From assembly GCA_903892415.1 (NCBI GenBank), contig CAITIQ010000230.1, positions 49,399-113,398 on the forward strand: 64,000 bases of DNA. The letters run 5' to 3'. Origin of the DNA: an uncultured delta proteobacterium. GTDB lineage: Bacteria; Myxococcota_A; Polyangia; Polyangiales; Polyangiaceae. The translations under genes and the position numbers were made by a program. Of the stretch, positions 51,880-59,292 are shown in pieces. Position 1 is the first letter of the stretch. The number at the start of each line of letters is the position of its first letter. The notes below the pieces were generated by a model that did no database searches, was not told where the DNA came from, and saw only the letters and a program-made list of their open reading frames with translations.

Positions 51880-52695
51880 TCAGCGCGGCTTGCAGGCCGA
51901 AAGCACACCACCAGCGCAGGCCTTTGCCAGGAGGGCGCGCGCCTTCTCGGGGTCTTTTTTGAGACCGCCATTGCCATAGTGGTAGTCGTTGCCGAGCGTC
52001 TGGCAGCCGTACATGTCGCCACCATTGCAGCCGCGTTCGAGGTATTCTCGGTCATCGCTGAAGATGCCATAGCTCGAGCACAGGCTAGCATCCCCCTTAT
52101 CGCAGCCTTGCTTGCGTAGCTCCTGGGCCCGCTCCTCGAGCTGTTTGGCTTTGGCCTTGTCCTTCGGCAGGCCGTAGCCCCTGATGTGGGACGATGCCAG
52201 GTCCTCGCAGGCGCGCACCATTCCCTGTTCGCATTCGGTCAGCTCGAGCTTGACCGCCATTTCGGTGAGCGAAGCCGCCAGGTCGGGATCTTTCGGTACG
52301 CCGAAGCCGAATTCGTGCAATCCCCCGAGGTAGTAGCAGGCCGGGCCATGCTTCTTCTTTTTGCAGAGCTCGTCGACGATCGCCCGTGTCCGCTCGGGGT
52401 GCTGGCCTTGTTTGGTGTCGCCCACCTTGTTGTACATGCTGGCGAGGCGCATGCAGCTCTCGAGGTCGCCCGCGTCACACTTTGCTCTGCAGCCTGCCTC
52501 GTCGGGGTCGAGACAGGGCAGGCTCTTGGCGCTCGCGGTAGCGGTCGCGACGGCGCCACTCGACGCGTCCGGCAGCGCCGAAGCGGCTTCTGTCGCCGCC
52601 GAAGTGGTCGCGGTGACGCCGCTGCCGGCGCGGCTGCTCGAGCCACACGCGAGGCAGAGAACGACGAGCCCGGTGAGTGAAGTGAGACATCGCAT
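51880..52695 (-). CDS. Sel1/TPR-like repeat lipoprotein
   Basis: LVVLCLACGSSS lipobox; Cys-containing repeats CEQGMVRACEDLASSHIRGYGLPKDKAKAKQL, CNGGDMYGCQTLGNDYHYGNGGLKKDPEKARALLAKACAGG. Confidence 0.85.
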   Translation of the reverse strand: MRCLTSLTGLVVLCLACGSSSRAGSGVTATTSAATEAASALPDASSGAVATATASAKSLPCLDPDEAGCRAKCDAGDLESCMRLASMYNKVGDTKQGQHPERTRAIVDELCKKKKHGPACYYLGGLHEFGFGVPKDPDLAASLTEMAVKLELTECEQGMVRACEDLASSHIRGYGLPKDKAKAKQLEERAQELRKQGCDKGDASLCSSYGIFSDDREYLERGCNGGDMYGCQTLGNDYHYGNGGLKKDPEKARALLAKACAGGVLSACKPR

Positions 52696-52780
52696 GCTCA
52701 GCACTGTAGACGTCCCAGCCTGGGCTGTCCGGCGTTGTGCGACAGAGCCGCTATCGTCGAAGCAAGCGGCGCCCTGGCCT
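52501..52780. repeat. Segmental duplication copy A (5' part of the Sel1 lipoprotein gene plus upstream region)
   Basis: Near-identical to 58957-59230 (about 0.28 kb). Confidence 0.93.
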
Positions 52781-52879
52781 CGCGCGTTGCTGGCGGCCAT
52801 TCAGTTGGTGCACGCGCAGCGCGCGATAGCCGGGGCCCGTGAGCCCCTGTTTCGGGCTCGACCTGTTACGCTCGCGACC

Positions 52880-54677
52880 GATGGGGATCGCATTTGAACA
52901 CGTAGCCTACGATGTCGATCTGCTGCCGGATTCGGGGACGGTGGGCATCGTCATGCAGGTGACCGTACGGGGCGAGGCGGCTCCCACCTCAGAGCTGGTG
53001 CTGTTGCTCGATGGCGGGATGCTGGTGTCGGCGGCCGACGTCGGCGGTACGCCCGTCTCACCGGTCGCAACCCCGGCCGGATCGTTCGTGAACGTTTCCG
53101 TACCGATCACGTTGGCGGTGGGCGAGGTCGCGACCGTCACCATCGCGTATGGCGGCGTTCCGCTTTGCGATACCTATGCGCCAGGATTTGCCTTCTGCGA
53201 AGGGATTCCTGCGGGCATGAGCCGCTTTCAATCCGGATCCGTTTTCCCCATCCTGCTCGAGTCGGATGGCTCACCAACGACCGACGTCGGAACGCAGCTC
53301 ATGGCGCTCCGCGTTCCGAGCGGTACCAGCTTGGTCAGCAACTACGACGTCACCTCCGAAACGGACGACGGATCCGTGCGCACGCTCGACCTGGCGATCG
53401 GCGAGCCGCGGGCGATCTTCACCGTTTTGCTTCCGGGTGTCTTCGAGATCGATCCCCTCTCGGCTTCACCGCCCGTCAGCACGCTCGCCTACGCAGGAGA
53501 GCCCCCGGCGTGGGAATCCACCGCGCTAGAGGCCGGGGCCGAGCTGGTGGCCTTCATCGAAGCTTCCTCCGGTGTCCCGTTTCCGTGCGACGTATTGACG
53601 TTCCTCGCGCTCGAGCCGGAGCATCGTGACGTTTCGTTCTCTTATCGGTGCATCCTGGGTGCGCACCCGGGCGATGTGCCGTCGGACTGGAGATTCGAGG
53701 AGTACGCGGCCCATGAGCTGAGCCATCAGATCTGGGGCATTGCCCTCGCACCCAGCGACTCTTTGCGCACGAAGTTGCTTCACGACGGGGCGGCCCAGCT
53801 CGCGATGTACGACTGGGCGCACGCGAGGCGATTTGCCTCCGTGCCCTACGACGAGTACCTCGGGTTCCGGCACCGCGAGGCCGACATCATGCTGCGCTAC
53901 CTGGCGCCGCTCGCGGAGGCGACGCCGGTGCTGGTGCCCACTGTGGGCGAGTCGATCGACGTTGCGACTCATGGCGCGACGGAGGCGTGGGGCTGGCAGT
54001 ACCTCAAGTCGAGCGCCGCTCACGATGGGCTCCGTATTCTGGTCGGCGATCAGCTCTTGCCCGGGCGAACGGCGTTCCTCTCTTCGTGCATCGGAAGCCC
54101 ATGCGTGACAGCGGACTATCGCGATGCCCTGGAGGAGGCATCCGGACTCGACCTCGGACCGTTCTTCGACGCGTTCGTTACGGACGCCTACGTGCCAGAC
54201 ATCCGCATCAGCTTTGCGGTAACCGAATCCGCGGGGGGCTTCACCACGACGATCGAACTTCAGCAGAACGAGCCGCGCCCCATTCCCATTGAGCTGCTCT
54301 TCGAACTGGAAGACGGGGAGCTGGCGCGCAGCATCGTCGAGATCGACCAACTGACCAATGAGCTGACGTTCGAGCACGCAAAGCGGCCCATCGTCGTGCG
54401 TCCCAATCCGCGGTTGACCCCGCTCCTGCGAGACACGTCCGCCGTGGAGGGCGATGTGAACTTCGACGGTCGGTCGGACGGGATCGATCTGGTCCGCTGC
54501 AACTTTGCCTACGAGCGACAAGCCCAGGCGGCCTATCCCCCAGCTCTCGAAGAAAACCTTGGGTTCTTTGGGGTCGACCTCTTCTTCGATCCACGTTGTG
54601 ACTTCGACGCGGACGGCGTCATCAGCGACGCCGATCTGAGCTACCTGCGCTCGATCGTCGAGGGAGGCGAGCAATGA
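52880..54677 (+). CDS. M1-like metallopeptidase (gluzincin fold) with C-terminal dockerin-like Ca-binding repeats
   Basis: EEYAAHELSHQIWGIALAPSDSLRTKLLHDGAAQLA; C-term GDVNFDGRSDGIDLVRC...CDFDADGVISDADLSYLRSIVEGGE. Confidence 0.75.
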
Positions 54678-55186
54678 ACCGCCGCTGCATCCTCGTCATG
54701 GGAGTTGGCCTGTTCACCGGATGCGGTGACGACGAGACAACGTCGCCCGCCACGTTCGACTTCACTCCCGAGTCGTTGGGCAGCGGCCCGGCGCTCGGCA
54801 TTCGGGAGGGCAGCTTCGAGGGAAGCTCACTTCGCTTGGTATTGGCAGCAACAGGCCTTGCTGACCTCTTTGGCTTCGCCATCGAGATCGCGCACCCGGC
54901 GGGTCTTCGTTTCGAGTCGTTCGTTCCGACCGAGCTGTTCCCGGTGGGCACGGATGTCGTTACCCGAAAGCTTACGGAGACGACGCTTCATCTTGCGGTT
55001 GCGCCACGGCGCTCGCCTCCGACACTCTCCGTCGCCGACTACGATCTTGGCACTCTAACGTTTACGCGTTTGGAAGACCCGTCGGGCGAACTCCAGATAT
55101 ACGGCGCGCGCAGCGAGGTCTTCGCGCAGAACGGCTTTCCGAGGCGTGATGTGGCGTACAGTGGTGGGCGGATCGAACGACGGTAG
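54674..55186 (+). CDS. Cohesin-like domain lipoprotein
   Basis: LFTGC lipobox; SSLRLVLAATGLADLFGFAIEIAHPAGLRFESFVPTELFP...YDLGTLTFTRLEDPSGELQIYG beta-sandwich pattern; ATGA overlap with the dockerin gene. Confidence 0.55.
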   Translation: MNRRCILVMGVGLFTGCGDDETTSPATFDFTPESLGSGPALGIREGSFEGSSLRLVLAATGLADLFGFAIEIAHPAGLRFESFVPTELFPVGTDVVTRKLTETTLHLAVAPRRSPPTLSVADYDLGTLTFTRLEDPSGELQIYGARSEVFAQNGFPRRDVAYSGGRIERR

Positions 55187-58769: not shown

Positions 58770-58956
58770 TCCTCTCACTTCGTGACGCCAAGCTCCACCG
58801 ACCGAATCGTTGTAGCGTTCGCAGGATGCTCGACAGGATCCATGTCGTGGGATTTGGGGTCGCCCTGAACCCCGTCTTCGCCGCCGCGCCGCCGCGCAGC
58901 GAAGTTTGATCGCATTTGTTGCGACGTGACCGCGACCCGATGGTCTGATGGCCTCC

Positions 58957-59151
58957 GTCGAGGTCGAGACAGGGCAGGCTCTTGGCGCTCGCGGTAGCGG
59001 TCGCGACGGCGCCACTCGACGCGTCCGGCAGCGCCGAAGCGGCTTCTGTCGCCGCCGAAGTGGTCGCGTTGCCGCCGCTGCCGGCGCGGCTGCTCGAGCC
59101 ACACGCGAGGCAGAGAACGACGAGCCCGGTGAGTGAAGCGAGACATCGCAT
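58957..59151 (-). pseudogene. Truncated 5' fragment of the Sel1-type lipoprotein gene
   Basis: MRCLASLTGLVVLCLACGSSSRAGSGGNATTSAATEAASALPDASSGAVATATASAKSLPCLDLD then unrelated sequence. Confidence 0.85.
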
Positions 59152-59230
59152 GCTCGGCACTGTACGTCCCAGCCAGGTCTGTCCGGCGTTCTGGGACAAA
59201 GCCGCTCTCGTCGAAGCAGGCGCCCTGGTC
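58957..59230. repeat. Segmental duplication copy B
   Basis: Matches 52501-52780 with a few substitutions and small indels. Confidence 0.93.
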
Positions 59231-59292
59231 CCGCTGACCTTGTTGCGGTCGTAGACCGCGATTGACGCCGTCGTGTAGGCTCCACCCCATTC

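Follow-up and report, generated by a model that had tools for sequence, protein, structure and literature searches.

A Predicted Cohesin-Dockerin Tether for an M1-Fold Metallopeptidase in Myxococcota, with an Aberrant Copy in an Uncultured Member

Results and Discussion

An overlapping pair of genes found in a 64,000-nucleotide stretch of DNA from an uncultured delta proteobacterium (hereafter, the window) is very probably a member of a Myxococcota family of two-gene tethering units, each composed of an exported M1-dockerin enzyme and a cohesin lipoprotein that anchors it. The first gene of such a unit would encode an exported M1-fold metallopeptidase with a dockerin at its end, and the second, translationally coupled gene would encode a small lipoprotein made up of nearly just one cohesin, the coupling keeping enzyme and anchor in step. 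Once the enzyme is exported, calcium-dependent binding of its dockerin to the cohesin would hold one enzyme per lipid anchor in the envelope, on either the periplasmic or the outer face. We infer the dockerin-cohesin binding, its calcium dependence, the membrane location, the peptidase activity and the substrate from the gene products and their relatives. An earlier note had read the two genes as a system tethering a metallopeptidase to the lipoprotein; the cohesin fold, the dockerin, the M1 relatedness, the coupling and the phylum-wide pairing uphold that interpretation, whereas the missing signal peptide and Asp302 of the window copy count against it. The window copy is an aberrant member of the family, lacking a signal peptide and altered in one zinc ligand. 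The features of the locus are as follows.

52496-52783, strand not assigned: copy of a 289-base direct repeat, 93% identical, from blastn of the window against itself
52881-54677, plus strand: metallopeptidase-like protein of M1 fold, 598 amino acids, ending in a dockerin and lacking a signal peptide, from the translation
53712-53726, plus strand: HELSH, residues 278-282, containing the catalytic Glu of M1 together with zinc ligands one and two; HExxH is invariant in 34/34 aligned members
53784-53786, plus strand: Asp302, aligned with the third zinc ligand, which is Glu in 33/33 relatives; from the alignment column
54447-54674, plus strand: dockerin, residues 523-598, from the family profile and from Pfam Dockerin_1 (E=0.002 when the stretch was searched by itself)
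54453-54488, plus strand: Ca-loop 1, residues 525-536, DVNFDGRSDGID
54600-54635, plus strand: Ca-loop 2, residues 574-585, DFDADGVISDAD
54674-54677, plus strand: ATGA, the lipoprotein start overlapping the peptidase stop, from the sequence
54674-55186, plus strand: cohesin lipoprotein, 170 amino acids, from AlphaFold2, Foldseek and the family profile against the PDB
54713-54724, plus strand: lipobox GLFTGC of the lipoprotein, from the sequence
about 54752-55180, plus strand: cohesin domain of the lipoprotein

The gene overlap is conserved in close relatives

The overlap of stop and start codons is present as the earlier note had described it, and translational coupling is supported. The window peptidase was searched against 184 genomes of the order, and the match reached into the dockerin in 13 relatives, which belong to Labilithrix, Polyangiaceae and other Myxococcales MAGs and whose peptidases are 22-28% identical to the window protein. 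The gene following each of these 13 peptidase genes encodes a cohesin lipoprotein, always with a 4-base overlap (ATGA in 8, GTGA in 5), and the overlap is kept while protein identity among the close pairs ranges from 24 to 75%. Since it is found at all of the close relatives, the gene arrangement in the window is more than chance. A further locus, L136, has the identical overlap and a cohesin-like lipoprotein that was read by eye.

The first gene encodes an M1-fold protein ending in a dockerin

The peptidase reading frame begins with ATG at 52881 and ends with a stop at 54675-54677; an alternative GTG start at 52839 would add 14 residues. The peptidase search revealed the product to be homologous over its full length to the 13 relatives. 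The AlphaFold2 model (pLDDT 85.7, pTM 0.86), when searched against the PDB with Foldseek, gave M1 enzymes throughout the best 50 matches, with a best value of 1.6e-28. When the window peptidase sequence was used alone, neither the PDB sequence search nor the scan of the genome contigs gave a match. The Pfam Peptidase_M1 model is matched by 13 of the 14 family members (best 2e-14), the window copy being the sole one that does not match, and the family profile searched against the PDB has as its first match the M1 zinc metalloprotease of Deinococcus radiodurans (2.2e-22). The earlier note's assignment of an M1-like peptidase is thus borne out by the model with its structural matches, by the PDB profile search and by Pfam in the relatives. 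The D. radiodurans protein (6a8z, 6iff) shares with the family the N-terminal and catalytic parts of M1 in a chain of 474 residues but, unlike the window protein, has no dockerin.

The HExxH-x18-E zinc site is altered in the window copy, which keeps HELSH but has Asp302 as the third ligand, with a spacing longer by one residue. Tyr occupies the proton-donor position in all 34 aligned members (Tyr374 in the window copy). GxMEN is a motif of M1 aminopeptidases, and this exopeptidase motif is absent from all 34 aligned members, the window copy included. We therefore rejected a plain aminopeptidase label for the window enzyme; to name it an M1 aminopeptidase would be an overstatement. With HExxH and Tyr kept but GxMEN missing throughout, the enzyme of this family probably departs from the standard aminopeptidases, and M1 enzymes lacking GxMEN as a group pose a catalytic question in themselves. 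In the M1 part, nearly all aligned members share Cys96 and Cys106, which fits an extracytoplasmic family.

Both Ca-loop repeats that had been quoted as fitting the dockerin pattern are present, and the dockerin is supported. The stretch has the anatomy of a type I dockerin (PF00404), with two F-hand Ca-loops carrying Asp/Asn at positions 1, 3, 5, (9) and 12, each followed in the AlphaFold2 model by a helix (residues 534-542 and 583-595). The Dockerin_1 score of the window stretch, 18.7 bits, falls below the curated cut-off of 22.9; what supports the dockerin label here is the anatomy together with the family profile. Dockerin_1 is matched by 9/14 family members, and some dockerins of relatives exceed the Pfam cut-off, for example those in genomes G314 and G468. 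The dockerin family profile, searched against the PDB, gave as its first match a type II dockerin (2y3n_B, 3.5e-5). A Cys pair at window residues 540 and 573 is invariant in the 14 close members (L032-L044 and the window), but none of the 20 distant members has it. Cys540 lies in the first dockerin helix and Cys573 directly before the second Ca-loop, so that the pair bridges both repeats, and in the close clade it may form a disulfide clasp.

The second gene encodes a cohesin lipoprotein

The lipoprotein begins with a hydrophobic leader and a lipobox Cys (MNRRCILVMGVGLFTGC in the window), and similar leaders are found in the relatives. Both stretches that the earlier note had quoted from it as resembling a cohesin are present, and the protein does model as a cohesin: the AlphaFold2 model has a pLDDT of 88.4, and its best 50 Foldseek matches in the PDB are cohesins or cohesin-like modules, the best being 6kgc (1.7e-7). 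Included among the matches are 2xdh, a non-cellulosomal cohesin of Archaeoglobus fulgidus, and cohesins of Clostridium perfringens.

It is very hard to credit, given these results, that the lipoprotein is another beta-sandwich, such as a carbohydrate-binding module, merely resembling a cohesin. That the window lipoprotein sequence alone has no match in Pfam would suit such a reading, but Pfam Cohesin (PF00963) is matched by 9/14 lipoprotein family members (best 1.7e-5), a profile made from the 14 members has the cohesin 5g5d as its best PDB match (4.1e-5), and the PDB profile and Foldseek lists consist of cohesins.

In the cohesin lipoprotein at L086, the lipid anchor is separated from the cohesin by some 90 linker residues, among which Asp, Gly, Glu and Ala are abundant. 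Docking in cis at the same locus, with dockerin and lipoprotein in frame across a TAG, was considered and dropped, as the alignment had put cohesin rows on the dockerin.

M1-family and cohesin genes are paired across the phylum

When 379 genomes of the phylum, which by the names of the close relatives we take to be Myxococcota, were searched with the cohesin profile, 33 further places were revealed. An M1-family gene adjoins the cohesin at 31 of these, found by profile at 29 (including L103, where the M1-family gene beside the cohesin is cut before the dockerin) and by eye at two (L091 and L097, where the start of the gene is visible before the contig end cuts it). The two remaining places are L108, which is cut by a contig end, and L109, a weak partial match. 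The peptidase gene comes first at 13 of the 31 places and the cohesin gene at 18; this swapping of gene order with adjacency kept argues for a functional pair. Searching with the dockerin profile brought to light a further five pairs (L114, L115, L116, L119 and L120), as well as L113 and L117, both cut by contig ends. L118 is the one clear exception, since no cohesin gene neighbours its M1-dockerin gene. When the two domains were searched independently and the six genomes that were sources of the profiles were left out, 13 genomes had both against about 2 expected (p=1.7e-9 in a test that ignores shared ancestry).

The genome of the window has one cohesin and one credible dockerin, as opposed to the multi-cohesin scaffoldin and many dockerin enzymes of a cellulosome. 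In several Polyangiaceae genomes the profiles likewise detect just one cohesin, the paired one, and one dockerin. A second Pfam dockerin match in the window's own genome (L110, on contig C492 of G000) was set aside as probable contamination; the 4.6-kb contig carries planctomycete-like dockerin and repeat proteins, and the contamination listed for the assembly is 6.3%. One-to-one pairing is not universal, because L118 has no cohesin neighbour and two genomes have many other dockerins (24 Pfam matches in G308 and nine in G468). Contig C137 of G237 carries an open frame of 3466 residues with at least two cohesins, and multi-client networks are possible in these three non-cellulolytic Myxococcota (G308, G468 and G237). 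In G237 and G347 there is an additional M1-dockerin paralogue (L117 and L118) for which no neighbouring cohesin was detected, L117 being cut by the contig end; it may use the same cohesin as the first paralogue.

Two other explanations of the pairing were weighed against a tether. Simple block inheritance, in which the genes are neighbours with no joint action, draws on the origin of the close members, all from one bacterial family. We nonetheless reject simple inherited synteny, because other families have the gene order switched and yet the two genes adjacent; retention of the 4-base overlap in every close pair across so wide a range of protein identity argues against it as well, and we hold it to be highly improbable. 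The lipoprotein might instead be an inhibitor, chaperone or activator that acts on the peptidase through its cohesin fold rather than a mere anchor, and strict pairing and coupling would suit an enzyme with its regulator equally well. Dockerins are known ligands of cohesins, however, and the presence of a separate dockerin on the enzyme, together with the lipid anchor on the lipoprotein, points to docking, so that a regulatory role seems unlikely to us.

The window copy may no longer function as a tethered enzyme

Of the relatives, 11 have a complete 5' end, and each of these has a signal peptide, with a hydrophobic leader followed by an A-x-A-like site (recognized by eye) and no lipobox; the enzyme would therefore be exported in free form. 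The earlier note had seen no signal peptide on the window peptidase, and we also found none: the frame is closed by a stop 18 codons before the ATG, and the other two plus-strand frames, which were searched for a frameshifted leader, hold no candidate. The protein begins where homology begins, and the first strand of the model is formed by residues 3-15, so that the fold looks complete and the leader gone. The direct repeat ends 98 bases before the peptidase ATG. Its other copy lies at 58951-59234, these being the two copies in the whole genome, and the repeat is possibly the trace of a rearrangement that cost the peptidase gene its 5' end. The repeated sequence belongs to a minus-strand gene for a Sel1-type lipoprotein and covers its 5' portion; the copy near 59 kb is seemingly truncated after about 60 residues.

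With no signal peptide and with Asp in place of the Glu ligand, the two products may never meet here and the enzyme may be inactive; the window copy may thus no longer work as a tethered enzyme. The copy could be a relic, in which the leader-coding 5' end was lost to a local rearrangement, leaving the enzyme stranded in the cytoplasm and the pair decaying while the tether works elsewhere. The lack of a leader in any frame, the repeat stopping just upstream of the ATG, the departure at residue 302 from all aligned relatives, and the solitary failure to match Pfam M1 favor decay. Against it, the 598 codons are still open and codon-biased (third-position GC 0.79), the copy retains its Ca-loops, HELSH, Tyr374 and the four cysteines of the family, and both the lipoprotein and the gene overlap are intact. 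We regard the choice between a relic and an altered but working member as about evenly balanced.

Comparison with known cohesin-dockerin systems

Non-cellulosomal cohesin and dockerin modules of archaea (Archaeoglobus fulgidus and ANME archaea) are reported to bind specifically (PMC9012536). Here as there, cohesins and dockerins occur with no large scaffoldin; the Myxococcota system differs in that the client has an M1 fold, the anchor is a lipoprotein, and a single coupled pair is found throughout a bacterial phylum. Dockerin-bearing proteases are known from cellulosomes, namely an S8 protease of C. thermocellum and a cysteine peptidase of R. flavefaciens (PMC12484212). These are likewise peptidases held through a dockerin on a cell-surface cohesin, as we predict for Myxococcota from sequence, but they are of other peptidase families and dock on multi-cohesin scaffoldins at a Gram-positive surface, and a dedicated overlapping cohesin gene is not described there.

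Our search of largely open-access literature gave no description of an enzyme-anchor operon and no dockerin system of Myxococcota or myxobacteria. On balance, we favor the view that the coupled pair represents an undescribed, phylum-wide tether of the Gram-negative envelope, with one GxMEN-less M1 enzyme per single-cohesin lipoprotein and a gene order switched in evolution, which would make it about the simplest cohesin-dockerin system known. To our knowledge, which dockerin binds which cohesin is mostly unknown outside cellulosomes. The gene pair names its own partners, one client enzyme and one lipid-anchored receptor, across the phylum, and the role of a non-cellulosomal cohesin is therefore directly testable with two small recombinant domains. 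The pair also offers new orthogonal cohesin-dockerin pairs, and suggests a way in which Myxococcota may hold a proteolytic enzyme at the envelope.
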